A DNA stretch of 64,000 nt from Cellulosimicrobium sp. CUA-896 (GTDB taxonomy: Bacteria > Actinomycetota > Actinomycetes > Actinomycetales > Cellulomonadaceae): contig NZ_MKKH01000033.1 in assembly GCF_001942335.1 (NCBI RefSeq), forward strand, positions 62,001 to 126,000. Reading direction: 5' to 3'. Within the stretch, counting starts at the first letter, position 1. Each line of letters opens with the position of its first letter. Shown in pieces: positions 2,497 to 46,682 of this stretch. Below the pieces are notes generated by a model. It searched no databases and was not told where the DNA came from. It saw nothing but the letters and a program-made list of their open reading frames with translations. The translations under genes and the position numbers were made by a program.

Positions 2497-3221
2497 CAGC
2501 GCACTCCTTCGGTGGTGGCGGTGAGGTCGAGGTAGTAGTCCTCGAGCGAACGGTCGGCGACGAGCTCGTCGAGGGTGCCGGTGGCGACGACGCGGCCCTG
2601 CCCGACGACGACGAGGTCGTCCGCGACCTGCCGCACCTCGGACAGCACGTGGCTCGCGAGCAGCACGGCGCCGCCGTCGTCGGCGAAGGCGCGCAGCAGG
2701 TCGCGCAGCCAGCGCATGCCGGCCGGGTCGAGCCCGTTCGCGGGCTCGTCGAGCACGAGCACGTCCGGCTCGCCGAGGAGGGCGGCGGCCAGGCCGAGCC
2801 GCTGGCGCATGCCGAGCGAGTACGTGCGCACGCGCCGGTCCGCGGCGGGCGTCATGCCGACGAGCGCGAGCACCTCGTCGACCCGGCGTGCGGGGAGGTG
2901 GCCCGCGGCGGCGAGGACGCGCAGGTGGTCCCGGCCGGTGCGGCCCGCGTGCAGGCCCCCGGCGTCGAGCAGCGCCCCGACGGTGCGGGCCGGGTCGGCG
3001 AGGTCGTGGTACGCGCGGCCGTGGATCGTCGCGCTGCCGGCGGTGGCGGACGCCAGGCCGAGCAGCACGTGCAGCGTCGTGGTCTTCCCGGCGCCGTTCG
3101 GCCCGAGCAGGCCGACGACGCGTCCCGGCTCGGCCGAGAACGTCACGTCGTGGACGGCGTCGAACGCCCCGTAGGACTTGCGCAGCCCGGTGACCTGGAC
3201 GACAGGCGTGGCGACAGGCAC
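2496..3221 (-). CDS. ABC transporter ATP-binding protein
   Basis: ATPase of an ABC-2 exporter, 241 residues. Walker A is GPNGAGKTTT, the signature is YSLGMRQRLGLA, Walker B is DVLVLDEPANGLDPAG, and the H-loop is LLASHVLSEV. The start is GTG 3221 (VPVATPVVQVTGLRKSYG) because GAAGGAGA lies about 7 bases upstream; the open frame extends further but has no family sequence before this. It is translationally coupled to the permease, then the kinase and regulator, so it is probably induced by that two-component system. Confidence 0.92.
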   Translation of the reverse strand: MPVATPVVQVTGLRKSYGAFDAVHDVTFSAEPGRVVGLLGPNGAGKTTTLHVLLGLASATAGSATIHGRAYHDLADPARTVGALLDAGGLHAGRTGRDHLRVLAAAGHLPARRVDEVLALVGMTPAADRRVRTYSLGMRQRLGLAAALLGEPDVLVLDEPANGLDPAGMRWLRDLLRAFADDGGAVLLASHVLSEVRQVADDLVVVGQGRVVATGTLDELVADRSLEDYYLDLTATTEGVR

Positions 3222-43060: not shown

Positions 43061-44329
43061 TCAGGCGCGCAGCGCCTGCTCGACGTCCTCGATCACGTCG
43101 AGGGGGTCCTCGAGGCCCACGGACAGCCGCACGGTCGTCTCCGCGATCCCGACGGCGGCGCGGCCCTCGGGCCCGAGCTTGCGGTGCGTCGTCGTCGCGG
43201 GGTGCGTGACGAGCGACTTGGCGTCGCCGAGGTTGTTGGAGATGTCGACGACCTGGAGCGCGTCGAGGAACGCGAACGCTCTCTTCTTGGCCGTCTCGGG
43301 GTCGGTCCCGGCGGGCACGTCGAGGTCGAACGTCACGACCGTGCCGCCGCCGGACTGCTGCGAGCGCGCGAGCGCGGTCTGCGGGTGCGAGTCGAGGAAC
43401 GGGTAGCGCACGCGTGCGAGCCCCGGCAGCTCCTCGAGCGATCGCGCGACCTGCTCGGCGTTGGCGTTCTGCGCCGCGACCCGCACCGGCATCGTCTCGA
43501 GGCCCTTGAGCAGCACCCACGCGTTGAACGCCGACAGGGTCGGCCCGGTGTTGCGGATGAGCGTCTGCACGGGCCCGCCGACGTAGTCCTCGCTCCCGAG
43601 GATCGCGCCGCCGAGCACGCGGCCCTGCCCGTCGATGTGCTTCGTCGCCGAGTACACGACGACGTCCGCGCCGAGCTCGAGCGGCTTCTGCAGCAGCGGC
43701 GTCGCGAACACGTTGTCGAGCACCACGACGGCGCCGGCGGCGTGCGCGAGCTCGCTCACACGGCGCACGTCGACGATGTCCTGCATGGGGTTGGACGGCG
43801 TCTCGAAGAACACGACGTCCGCGGGCGTCGCGAGCGCCTCCTCCCACTGGGAGAGCACGTGCCCGTCGACGTAGTCCGTCCGCACGCCCCACTTCGCGAA
43901 GATCTCGTCGAAGATCACGATGCTCGAGCCGAACAAGGCGCGCGCCGCGACGATCCGCGAGCCCGACCGCACGAGCGCGGCGAGCGACGTGAACACGGCC
44001 GACATCCCGGACGCCGTCGCGTGGCACGCCTCCGCACCCTCGAGGAGCCGCAGGCGTTCGGTGAACGTGTGCACGGTCGGGTTGCCGTAGCGCGAGTAGA
44101 CGAACCGGTCGACCTCGCCCTTGAACGCCGCCTCCGCGTCGGCGGCGCGGTCGTACGTGTACCCCTGGGTGAGGAACAGCGCCTCGGACGTCTCCTGGAA
44201 GTCCGTGCGCGCGTTGCCGCCGCGCACGGCGAGCGTCGCGGGCCGCGCGCTCGCGGGCAGCGGCTTGCGGCCCGAACCGCCTGGCACCCCGCCCGGCACC
44301 TCGTGCCCGACGCCGCCCGCCGGGCTCAT
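43061..44329 (-). CDS. metZ: O-succinylhomoserine sulfhydrylase
   Basis: 422 residues, intact. PLP enzyme of the Cys/Met-metabolism family, making homocysteine from O-succinylhomoserine (or the O-acetyl form) and sulfide. Motifs: YSRYGNPTVHTFTERLRLLEGAE, ATASGMSAVFTSL, VVFFETPSNPMQDIVD, VVLDNVFATPLLQKPLELGADVVVYSATKHIDGQGR (PLP Lys, described in pieces) and RNTGPTLSAFNAWVLLKGLETM. The lack of a C-gamma-lyase Tyr/Cys pattern favours MetZ over MetB. ATG 44329 overlaps the rhodanese stop, so both are under the SAM-I leader. Confidence 0.92.
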   Translation of the reverse strand: MSPAGGVGHEVPGGVPGGSGRKPLPASARPATLAVRGGNARTDFQETSEALFLTQGYTYDRAADAEAAFKGEVDRFVYSRYGNPTVHTFTERLRLLEGAEACHATASGMSAVFTSLAALVRSGSRIVAARALFGSSIVIFDEIFAKWGVRTDYVDGHVLSQWEEALATPADVVFFETPSNPMQDIVDVRRVSELAHAAGAVVVLDNVFATPLLQKPLELGADVVVYSATKHIDGQGRVLGGAILGSEDYVGGPVQTLIRNTGPTLSAFNAWVLLKGLETMPVRVAAQNANAEQVARSLEELPGLARVRYPFLDSHPQTALARSQQSGGGTVVTFDLDVPAGTDPETAKKRAFAFLDALQVVDISNNLGDAKSLVTHPATTTHRKLGPEGRAAVGIAETTVRLSVGLEDPLDVIEDVEQALRA

Positions 44330-44838
44330 CGCGCGGCCTCGCCGTCCGCGGAGGCGGCCTGGGCGTCGTCGTACGTCGTGACCGGCAGGCCGCGGACCTT
44401 CCAGCCCTCGACGTCGCGCGCCCCGGTGAAGCCCTGCGCGCCCTCGAAGCCCTCGACGACGTTGTACGACGGCCCGATGCCCGCGGCGGTCGCGGCGCGA
44501 GCCGCGCCGATCGAGCGCTGGCCGGAGCGGCACAGGAAGACGACGGGGCGCTCGTCGCCCGGCGCGAGACCGGCCTCGGCGAGGCGGTCGAGGAACGCGG
44601 GGTTGGGACCGAGCGGCGTGACCCACTCGTCGAACAGCACCGCGTGGCCGAGGTCCGCGACGTCGGGCACGCCGATCGTCCGCCACTCGCCCTCGGTGCG
44701 GACGTCCACGAGGACGGCGCGCTCGTCCGCGGCGAGCAGGTCCCACGCCTGCTGCGGGTCGACGTCGCCGGCATAGCCGGCGGCGGGGCGGGCCTGGGGC
44801 ACCGTGGTGGCGGGCTGGTCCTGCACGGGGTCGCTCAT
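44326..44838 (-). CDS. Rhodanese-like sulfurtransferase
   Basis: 170 residues. Single rhodanese domain: WDLLAADERAVLVDVRTEGEWRTIG and catalytic Cys in VVFLCRSGQRSIGAARAA. The tail includes GAQGFTGARDVEGWKVRGLPV, typical of rhodaneses placed next to metZ, where they may supply persulfide sulfur. GGAGGAG upstream of ATG 44838 is next to the P1 stem of the SAM-I riboswitch. Confidence 0.9.
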   Translation of the reverse strand: MSDPVQDQPATTVPQARPAAGYAGDVDPQQAWDLLAADERAVLVDVRTEGEWRTIGVPDVADLGHAVLFDEWVTPLGPNPAFLDRLAEAGLAPGDERPVVFLCRSGQRSIGAARAATAAGIGPSYNVVEGFEGAQGFTGARDVEGWKVRGLPVTTYDDAQAASADGEAAR

Positions 44839-44847
44839 GGCTCTCCT

Positions 44848-44945
44848 CCATCGGTCGTGGCAGTAGCACCCTCGCCCGGGGCCCTCTCGAGCCCGGGGGG
44901 TTGCTGCGGCGTCGACGTGCCACGTCACTCGGCCGCTCCGGATGG
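44848..44945 (-). ncRNA. SAM-I (S-box) riboswitch of the rhodanese-metZ operon
   Basis: On the minus strand, P1 is CCATC (44945 side) pairing with GATGG (44852-44848). Between lie GGAGCGGCCGAGTGAC (P2 5' side with the kink-turn GA), GACGCCGCAGCAACC (P2 3' side and conserved GCAACC), a C/G-rich P3 hairpin, and AGGGTGCTACTGCCAC (P3 3' side and P4). This order matches the S-box core. The 3' strand of P1 runs straight into GGAGGAG, the ribosome binding site, suggesting that SAM binding blocks translation of the sulfur genes. Confidence 0.75.
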
Positions 44946-45103
44946 TTCCTCGGATCGTACGGCACGCCGCGCGGCCTCCGGGACGGCCGTCTCGCCCCGT
45001 GGGCGCGCGTCCCGAGGGTCCGTCGACCCGAGGTCGATCCATCATCCGAGACACGCTGCCCATTCCTTGACACCCCTGCGCGCCTCGCCCATCCTGGTGC
45101 GCA

Positions 45104-45218
45104 GGTCATGAGTGCCAGCGTGAAACCCCGGTTTGCTGGCCGGCAACCCTCCTCCGCGGCGGGGTGCCCCGGGTGACGACCAGGCCGCACGCCGACCGGC
45201 GCGCGGCAAGCGCGGGGA
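45104..45218 (+). ncRNA. SAM-IV riboswitch of the class V aminotransferase gene
   Basis: On the plus strand: GGTCATGAGTGCCAGCG, an ACCCCGGTTT hairpin region, GCTGGCCGGCAACCCTCC, GGCGGGGTGCCCCGGGTG and ACGACC closing P1 (GGTC/GACC). The 3' extension ends GCGCGGCAAGCGCGGG, the extra hairpin and pseudoknot region that separates SAM-IV from SAM-I. The match with the actinobacterial SAM-IV consensus is close throughout. A GGGGAG-CGC-CTCCCC hairpin follows, just before the ribosome binding site, and may be the expression platform. Confidence 0.88.
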
Positions 45219-45251
45219 GCGCCTCCCCGACCGACATCGGAGGACCGTGCC

Positions 45252-46682
45252 GTGACCACACTCGCCGAGCTCGACTGTCAGACGGCTGCCCCGGACGTCG
45301 CCGCCGCGCCGGCTCTGCTCCCCGTCGTCGGGAGCGACACGCTCGTCCCCGTCGTCGACGGGCGCAGCGTGCCGTACGCCAACCTCGACGTCGCCGCGTC
45401 CGCGCCCGCCCTGCGCGCGGTGGCGGACCGCGTCACCGAGGTCCTACCGCTCTACGCGAGCGTCCACCGCGGCGCCGGTTACCTCTCCCAGGTGTCCACC
45501 GCCCTCTACGAGGCCGCCCGCGCGCGCATCGGGGAGTTCGTCGGCGCGCGCGACGAGGACGTCACCGTCGTCACGCGCAACACGACCGACTCGCTCAACC
45601 TGCTCGCCGGCTGCGTGCCGCCGCACCCCGACGGCACGCCGGGCCGCGTGCTCGTCCTCGACGTCGAGCACCACGCGAACCTCCTGCCGTGGCAGCGCAC
45701 CGGCGGCGCGACCGTCCTCGCCGGTGGTGCGAGCGTCGCCGAGACGCTCTCCGGCCTGCGCACCGAGCTCGCCCGGTTCGACTACGCGCTGCTCGCCGTG
45801 ACGGGGGCGTCGAACGTCACGGGCGAGGCGCTGCCCCTCGCCGAGGTCGTGCGGCTCGCGCACGACGCCGGGGCGCGGGTCGTGCTCGACGGCGCGCAGC
45901 TCGTGCCGCACCGCGGGTTCTCGCTCGCGCAGACGGGCGCGGACTACGTCGCCTTCTCCGGCCACAAGACCTACGCGCCCTTCGGTGCAGGGGCGCTCGT
46001 CGGCCGCCGCGACTGGCTCGACGCCGGTACGCCGCACCTCGCGGGCGGCGGCGCCGTGCGCCAGGTGGGGCTCGACGCCACGCAGTGGCAGACGGCGCCC
46101 GCCCGGCACGAGGCCGGGTCGCCGAACGTCGTCGGCGCGGTGGCGCTCGCGGCCGCGTGCGACGCGCTCGCGGCGCTCGACCCCGCCGCGCTCCACGCCC
46201 ACGAGGCCGCGCTGCGCGCCGCGCTCGTCGACGGGCTGTCCTCGATCGAGGGCGTGCGGGTCGTCACGGTCTGGCCCGACGCCACCGACCCCGTGGGCGT
46301 CGTGACGTTCTCCGTGACCGGTCACGACCCCGGTCTCGTCGCCGCCTACCTCTCCGCGGAGCACGGCATCGGCGTGCGCGACGGCCGCTTCTGCGCCCAC
46401 CCGCTGCTCGCGCGCCTCGGCTACGACGCCGGTGCCATCCGCGCGTCGGTCGGCGTGGGGACGACGGGCGCCGAGGTCGCGCGGCTGGTCGACGCCGTGC
46501 GCGCGTACGTCGAGCAGGGGCCGAGTGCGCGGTACGCCGTGGTCGACGGCTGCTGGACCGTCGTCGACGACCCGCGCCCCGTCCCCGCCGGGTCCGGGCT
46601 CGAGGGCCTCTTCGCGACCGCCGCGGCCGGCTTCCTCGCCGACGCCGCGGCGTGCGGCCCCGCACCGGACGGACCCGCCTGA
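45252..46682 (+). CDS. Class V aminotransferase, cysteine desulfurase-like, SAM-riboswitch controlled
   Basis: 476 residues, intact; GTG 45252 has CGGAGGA upstream. PLP fold type I: YANLDVAASAPALRAV, SVHRGAGYLSQVST, DVEHHANLLPW, VVLDGAQLVPHRGF and the PLP Lys in FSGHKTYAPFGAGAL. A Cys in GRFCAHPLLARLGY is placed as the catalytic Cys of CsdA/SufS-type enzymes. It is longer than SufS because of a ~50-residue C-terminal extension (after VEQGPS). Control by SAM suggests a role in cysteine/methionine sulfur flow rather than general Fe-S assembly. Confidence 0.82.
   Translation: MTTLAELDCQTAAPDVAAAPALLPVVGSDTLVPVVDGRSVPYANLDVAASAPALRAVADRVTEVLPLYASVHRGAGYLSQVSTALYEAARARIGEFVGARDEDVTVVTRNTTDSLNLLAGCVPPHPDGTPGRVLVLDVEHHANLLPWQRTGGATVLAGGASVAETLSGLRTELARFDYALLAVTGASNVTGEALPLAEVVRLAHDAGARVVLDGAQLVPHRGFSLAQTGADYVAFSGHKTYAPFGAGALVGRRDWLDAGTPHLAGGGAVRQVGLDATQWQTAPARHEAGSPNVVGAVALAAACDALAALDPAALHAHEAALRAALVDGLSSIEGVRVVTVWPDATDPVGVVTFSVTGHDPGLVAAYLSAEHGIGVRDGRFCAHPLLARLGYDAGAIRASVGVGTTGAEVARLVDAVRAYVEQGPSARYAVVDGCWTVVDDPRPVPAGSGLEGLFATAAAGFLADAAACGPAPDGPA

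Follow-up and report, generated by a model that had tools for sequence, protein, structure and literature searches.

Why bacteria retain more than one riboswitch class for the same ligand is difficult to test by comparing species. A locus in the soil actinobacterium Cellulosimicrobium sp. CUA-896 poses the question within a single cell. In the 64,000-nucleotide stretch of contig NZ_MKKH01000033.1 analysed here (the window), a sequence-only reading had placed two elements back to back in an intergenic region of ~410 bp: a SAM-I (S-box) riboswitch on the minus strand and a SAM-IV riboswitch on the plus strand, each heading sulfur genes. It had also suggested that two architectures sensing one ligand from a shared divergent region could set different SAM thresholds for the two arms. 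Are both elements genuine members of their classes, how would they act on the two transcripts, and is the divergent arrangement itself a regulatory device? The region measures 413 bp (44839-45251), between the start of a rhodanese gene (44838, minus strand) and that of an aminotransferase gene (45252, plus strand), and the coordinates given for the two elements proved correct to within 3 bp. Since two members of one riboswitch clan, with a common pocket and different peripheries, here precede two sulfur operons of one soil actinobacterium from predicted starts ~155 bp apart, their affinity, speed and output should be directly comparable. The pair thus provides a natural experiment, side by side, on the reasons why a cell would have more than one sensor type for a metabolite.

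The minus-strand arm begins with a gene for a rhodanese-domain protein of 170 aa (44326-44838; PF00581, E 1.7e-8), followed by metZ, encoding O-succinylhomoserine sulfhydrylase (43061-44329, minus strand; NF005870 725.9 bits at a cut-off of 618, TIGR01325 574.6 bits at a cut-off of 510). In the window sequence the rhodanese stop codon is overlapped by the metZ start as ATGA, which suggests translational coupling of metZ to the rhodanese gene. The plus-strand arm encodes a class V, cysteine-desulfurase-like aminotransferase of 476 aa with a GTG start (45252-46682; PF00266, E 4.7e-82). Its best named match is a protein of Cellulosimicrobium terreum (88% identity), and against the SufS family TIGR01979 it scores 280 bits, under the family cut-off of 475. 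The genome assembly (3.7 Mb in 78 contigs, 83% complete) contains one SAM-IV match and, besides the minus-strand element, one further SAM-I (52.9 bits).

On the plus strand the RF00634 scan returned a full-length match (45104-45218; model positions 1-116 of 116) with 111.5 bits, compared to a gathering score of 38, and an E-value of 9.5e-20 over the window. The SAM-IV call ahead of the class V aminotransferase was therefore correct. The aptamer comprises P1, P2a/b, P3, P5 and the pseudoknots PK1 and PK2, the 3’ strand of PK2 lying at 45212-45215. It thus has the features of SAM-IV membership: P4 is absent, and the P5 hairpin and both pseudoknots are present. Across 22 sequences 96.8% of the positions in its pairs, PK1 and PK2 included, are paired, with 65 double changes compared to 26.2 in shuffled alignments, a number reached in none of 500 shuffles. 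In its helices and both pseudoknots the element is the same as the RF00634 family, and we saw no difference in the aptamer.

The minus-strand element (44845-44948) required closer consideration. RF00162 matches it over the full length of the model (44948 to 44845) and is the best clan match on this strand, with an E-value of 4.6e-8 when 1.1 kb was searched and 3.7e-8 when the whole genome was searched. Its score of 42.5 bits falls below the Rfam gathering score of 44.4, which is why it is missing from a scan of the window at the gathering threshold. The sequence-only reading had named failure of RF00162 on this strand as its refutation; by E-value the match stands, at the curated cut-off it does not. 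We also built a model (R3) from the SAM-I elements of 22 relatives, leaving out both the window and the second SAM-I of the genome. R3 gives the minus-strand element 92.7 bits (E 3e-25), and the next-best site in the 64 kb window 15.6 bits. Together with the covariation described below, this score rules out a chance match to RF00162. Four of eight scanned relatives of the locus pass the Rfam cut-off. The SAM-I elements of L064, L080, L088 and L090, like that of the window, fall under the gathering score, and the cut-off thus hides some of these elements.

The conserved P1-P2-P3 core and the pocket segments (AUC, GAG, GCAACC, GGUGC and GAU) are all present in the element. P1 has 5 bp, formed by CCAUC (44945-44941) and GAUGG (44852-44848), and the L2 strand CGUGG (44924-44920) pairs with CCACG (44860-44856) in the pseudoknot. 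In a plain MAFFT alignment of 24 sequences, among them the window, the pocket segments are invariant, and 98.4% of the cells of the 26-pair structure hold standard pairs, with 19 double-change cells compared to 4.6 in shuffles. The pseudoknot is paired in 94.2% of its cells in this alignment, seven being non-standard. A second alignment, of 28 distinct sequences of the locus, took the helices but not the pseudoknot as a guide; in it 98.9% of the cells are paired and double changes occur in seven pairs (42 cells). This compares to 16.6 in shuffles, none of 500 equalling it, and to at most 5 for structures slid along the alignment; the relatedness of the sequences inflates these counts. The five pairs between L2 and J3/4 are here paired in all cells. 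Two of them show double changes, one being C-G in 15 and G-C in 13 sequences (G-C in the window). No variation is seen in P1 or in the six outer pairs of P3, which are therefore uninformative. Since P1 is invariant in both aptamers, covariation cannot support this helix in either of them.

One might take the element for a degenerate or non-functional remnant of a SAM-I riboswitch, for it scores below the gathering score and has no P4. The invariant pocket segments and the 42 double-change cells rule such a remnant out in practice. The overlap of P1 with the Shine-Dalgarno sequence and the -10 box (see below) are also kept, and half of the eight scanned relatives pass the cut-off, so we regard decay as highly improbable.

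P4 is part of the canonical SAM-I riboswitch. In the aligned relatives (alignments A6 and A9) only 11-12 nt separate P3 from P1, which leaves no room for a hairpin, and P4 is thus absent. The earlier SAM-I call had not mentioned this. It was right as to the core, the kink-turn and the pseudoknot; P4 is lacking and the Rfam cut-off is missed. Other members of the clan were considered as well. SAM-IV lacks P4 but has P5 and PK2, as described in the accessible part of PMC6890682. We rejected this identity for the minus-strand element: P5 and PK2 are missing, and the Shine-Dalgarno sequence and start codon come directly after P1. In the SAM-I/IV variant, P2 has no internal loop (PMC2864571, available text). 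This identity was rejected as well, as P2 of the element has an internal kink-turn loop and RF00162 is its best clan match. Judged by sequence only, the kink-turn has six unpaired nucleotides on its 3’ side (columns 33-38 of A6), with an invariant GA at columns 19-20 and GAC at 36-38; in the excerpt seen of PMC6890682, six nucleotides are given for SAM-I vs four for SAM-IV. Compared with the RF00162 family, the element is alike in P1, the P2a/P2b kink-turn loop, the L2 pseudoknot, P3 and the conserved segments; it differs in having no P4, a 5-bp P1 that runs into the Shine-Dalgarno sequence and a score under the cut-off. By its core and pseudoknot it is a SAM-I riboswitch, in a P4-less variant and not as a canonical member.

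The lack of P4 is not a trait of this family alone. Model R1 matched 104 of 246 genomes sampled across the phylum, and among its best 29 loci 20 of the 27 usable ones have no room for P4, a share that is overstated because R1 itself contains no P4. The bias of RF00162, which includes P4, goes the other way and favours P4-bearing loci: parsing succeeded for 24 of its best 30 loci in the phylum, and in every one of these P3 is followed by at least 32 nt, with a P4-like hairpin visible by eye.

How could these aptamers act on the genes behind them? On the minus strand the arrangement is compact. The 3’ strand of P1, GAUGG, is continued by GGAGGAG (44843-44849), the Shine-Dalgarno sequence of the rhodanese gene, which shares positions 44849-44848 with the end of P1, and the start codon comes next. 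The Shine-Dalgarno sequence overlaps P1 in 25 of 29 loci. In these it begins within P1 and the start codon comes 4-12 nt later. The four exceptions (L068, L069, L071 and L088) are all from Sanguibacter; they keep the aptamer and have a separate Shine-Dalgarno sequence 9-15 nt past the start of the P1 3’ strand. Upstream, a proposed -10 box (TACGAT, 44954-44959, minus strand) lies 14 bp from P1, measured start to start. Most loci (26 of 29) have a -10-like box of the TANNNT type that begins 13-15 bp ahead of P1. No clear -35 box of the rhodanese-metZ promoter was seen by eye. With a -10-like box this close, the RNA would be expected to begin almost at P1. An S-box expression platform consisting of this overlap of P1 and the Shine-Dalgarno sequence would be very simple. 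In Xanthomonas campestris the SAM-I riboswitch of the met operon acts mainly at translation, as stated in the accessible text of PMC7270179. The likeness lies in translational action, which in the window is suggested by the P1/Shine-Dalgarno overlap as read from sequence.

On the plus strand we propose an aminotransferase promoter at 45067-45095, with TTGACA (45067-45072), a 17-bp spacer and CATCCT (45090-45095), and this would place the transcript start directly next to SAM-IV. All but one of the 29 family loci have TTGAC 36-38 bp ahead of SAM-IV. In a strict scan for the sigma-70 consensus (at least 4 of 6 positions per hexamer) neither of the two proposed promoters passes. The predicted expression platform (45214-45243) holds two alternative pairings: GGGGA (45214-45218), which overlaps PK2, can pair with UCCCC (45224-45228), or CCUCC (45222-45226) can pair with the Shine-Dalgarno sequence GGAGG (45239-45243). 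When the PK2 strand was blocked from local pairing in an energy calculation, to mimic the bound state, the Shine-Dalgarno sequence of the window became 2.5 kcal/mol more costly to open. Across 28 leaders this cost rose by more than 0.5 kcal/mol in 16, fell in 2 and changed little in 10, compared to 7 with a rise and 12 with a fall when other positions were blocked as a control; the energy model is crude, the starts of L078 and L086 are probably misassigned, and in a 29th leader no start was found. These energies support, short of proof, a translational OFF switch in the SAM-IV leader.

Our preferred reading, to which we assign a probability of roughly 0.7, is that the locus carries two independent SAM-responsive translational OFF switches, both from the same riboswitch clan and each on its own divergent transcript. 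From the sequence features we infer that both RNAs bind SAM, that SAM represses, that control is exerted at translation and where the transcripts start. On the minus transcript the P4-less SAM-I aptamer would adjoin the predicted 5’ end. SAM would stabilise P1, and the GAUGG strand running into GGAGGAG would close the Shine-Dalgarno sequence, keeping the ribosome off the rhodanese gene and probably, via the ATGA overlap, off metZ as well. On the other transcript SAM-IV would begin at the expected start site of the aminotransferase promoter. In the SAM-bound state PK2 would take GCGG and compete with the GGGGA/UCCCC hairpin, so that the C-rich segment would be free to cover the Shine-Dalgarno sequence of the aminotransferase gene. 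High SAM would thus lower both sulfur arms via two different RNA mechanisms.

The same riboswitches might instead cause premature termination of transcription, possibly Rho-dependent, in place of controlling ribosome access. In Streptomyces clavuligerus the SAM-IV preceding a class V aminotransferase gene was called as a premature transcription unit (PMC8269248, part of the text), which points to transcription attenuation there. Many relatives also show, by eye, a GC-rich hairpin of the GGGG/CCCC type after SAM-IV. Against this, a scan of 44780-45320 for terminator-like sites with a T-run, a search outside of which Rho-dependent sites fall, found none. At SAM-I, a Shine-Dalgarno sequence within P1 and a start codon 4-12 nt further on (25 of 29 loci) leave little room for a terminator. 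We therefore consider termination rather unlikely, though the nearest competitor of the two translational switches.

We then turned to the divergent arrangement. The best 80 of 587 relatives of the aminotransferase were examined, and in 75 of these 80 a SAM-IV precedes the gene. In all 28 loci from related genera (L064-L091) a divergent SAM-I is present as well, with rhodanese and metZ on the SAM-I side in every case. These loci come from Cellulosimicrobium, Sanguibacter, Promicromonospora, Myceligenerans, Isoptericola, Xylanimonas, Xylanimicrobium, Cellulomonas and one Actinomycetes MAG, genera that we take to form one family in GTDB. None of the other 52 loci among the best 80 has a divergent SAM-I at E 0.001, the closest being L102 with E 0.004. 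At the level of genomes, a divergent pair within 4 kb was found in 44 of 61 family genomes among the matches listed. A renewed search of the 13 family genomes that had a SAM-I match but no pair among the matches listed added three (G025, G049 and G065), giving 47 of 61. A SAM-I match is absent in four of the 61; in the other ten a SAM-I was found without the pair, and broken pairs may be missed in some of these because the assemblies consist of many contigs. The count of the pair in related genomes that had been proposed with the first reading thus speaks for conservation. As judged by sequence and comparison, both riboswitches are real, belong to known classes and are conserved as a pair; the SAM-I lacks P4, and its P1 runs into the Shine-Dalgarno sequence.

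The gap between the two riboswitches is below 300 bp in 37 of the 47 genomes and 318-3369 bp in the remaining 10. With gaps of up to 3.4 kb, close adjacency is not required. Because more than 300 bp separate the elements in 10 of the 47 genomes, conserved synteny of two separate cis-switches could explain the pair. The sequence supports the original proposal of two SAM architectures in one divergent region, each heading its own sulfur gene or genes, and this is conserved. The idea of a shared-region design is weakened by the separated pairs. In eight of the loci (L065-L067, L070, L074, L081, L082 and L089) 0.7-3 kb lie between the riboswitches, SAM-IV staying with the aminotransferase and SAM-I with rhodanese-metZ; ORFs were listed for the extra DNA of six of these loci. 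In a member of another family of the same order (G117, L035) a divergent SAM-I/SAM-IV pair lies 151 bp apart, and SAM-I there precedes MTHFR and metE genes and not rhodanese-metZ. A similar arrangement with another operon exists. A further genome of that family (G102) has a SAM-I/SAM-IV pair 157 bp apart.

The spacer also contains a palindrome-like motif, GTCTCGGATGATGGATC (45036-45052, minus strand), 14 bp upstream of the -35-like box of SAM-IV, a putative operator for a transcription factor. It matches 15 of 17 positions of the consensus GTCTCGSATGNYGGGAC (GTCTC-N7-GAGAC type). Among the 29 family loci, 24 have their best match, with varying scores, 67-72 bp ahead of SAM-IV and close to the -35-like box. 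At least 13 of 17 positions match in 19 of the 29 loci, 17 of them at this distance, compared to 4.8% of spacers after mononucleotide shuffling and 4 of 47 other loci, an excess that is partly built in because the consensus was derived from these same loci. A scan of the window with the strict consensus (at most 3 mismatches) gave four matches elsewhere, the site at 45036-45052 not being among them, and 8 of 100 shuffles gave as many. A close pattern was found 16 times in five genomes compared to 2 for a reversed control; the window site is again not among these. The palindrome may be the operator of a putative sulfur regulator protein. Some of the genome matches lie, by eye, near sulfur-type genes and others do not. 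One is located near a Cys/Met PLP enzyme gene in the genome of the window (L206), and matches in G009 are located near genes for a rhodanese and an NMT1-type substrate-binding protein. Jiangella (L123) and Nocardioides (L094) have similar palindromes, 73 and 80 bp ahead of SAM-IV, respectively.

Retention of the pair in 47 of 61 family genomes, its recurrence ahead of MTHFR and metE genes in G117 and the palindrome in the spacer would all fit a two-threshold module, in which one architecture closes at lower SAM and so orders both arms under a shared operator. Such a module would be compatible with two OFF switches. The 10 of 47 pairs more than 300 bp apart speak against it, and the retention may largely reflect shared descent. 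Different SAM thresholds for the two sulfur arms are plausible as an idea; we regard the module as improbable. The pairing may largely be inherited synteny, with each switch belonging to its own operon. Similarly doubtful is a more far-reaching view: that the pair is a maintained dual-architecture controller, in which a minimal P4-less SAM-I, with P1 itself locking the ribosome site, and SAM-IV would be retained opposite each other because they differ in the SAM level or the time scale at which they close. The palindromic operator would be a third input, and the P4-less SAM-I of the phylum would represent a living intermediate between SAM-I and SAM-IV, P4 being absent from the latter as well.

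Two independent translational switches thus remain our preferred reading, and the question arises in how far their arrangement is new. No description of a divergent SAM-I/SAM-IV pair was recognised in the titles and beginnings of abstracts searched, mostly of papers accessible without subscription. For S. clavuligerus, a class V aminotransferase gene preceded by SAM-IV is already published (PMC8269248, seen in part), and what differs in the window is that its SAM-IV faces a SAM-I; we regard the novelty of the divergent arrangement as modest. Tandem riboswitches in series, SAM-II with SAM-V and SAM-II with SAM-I/IV, are described in the available text of a review (PMC9481103). They share with our locus the use of two classes for one ligand at one locus, but stand in series ahead of one gene, whereas here the transcripts diverge. 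The words “divergent” and “opposite strand” do not occur in the text of this review (PMC9481103). A Klenkia MAG (L097) has two SAM-IV riboswitches back to back (2875-2984, minus strand, and 3080-3192, plus strand), 95 bp apart. As in the window, a class V aminotransferase is encoded on one side; the other side has a luciferase-like monooxygenase, and the riboswitch class is the same on both sides.

Finally, the second SAM-I of the Cellulosimicrobium genome (L002, 1501-1603, plus strand) has the same CCAUC/GAUGGAG layout as the minus-strand element, and the ORF downstream of it carries a methylenetetrahydrofolate reductase domain (PF02219).
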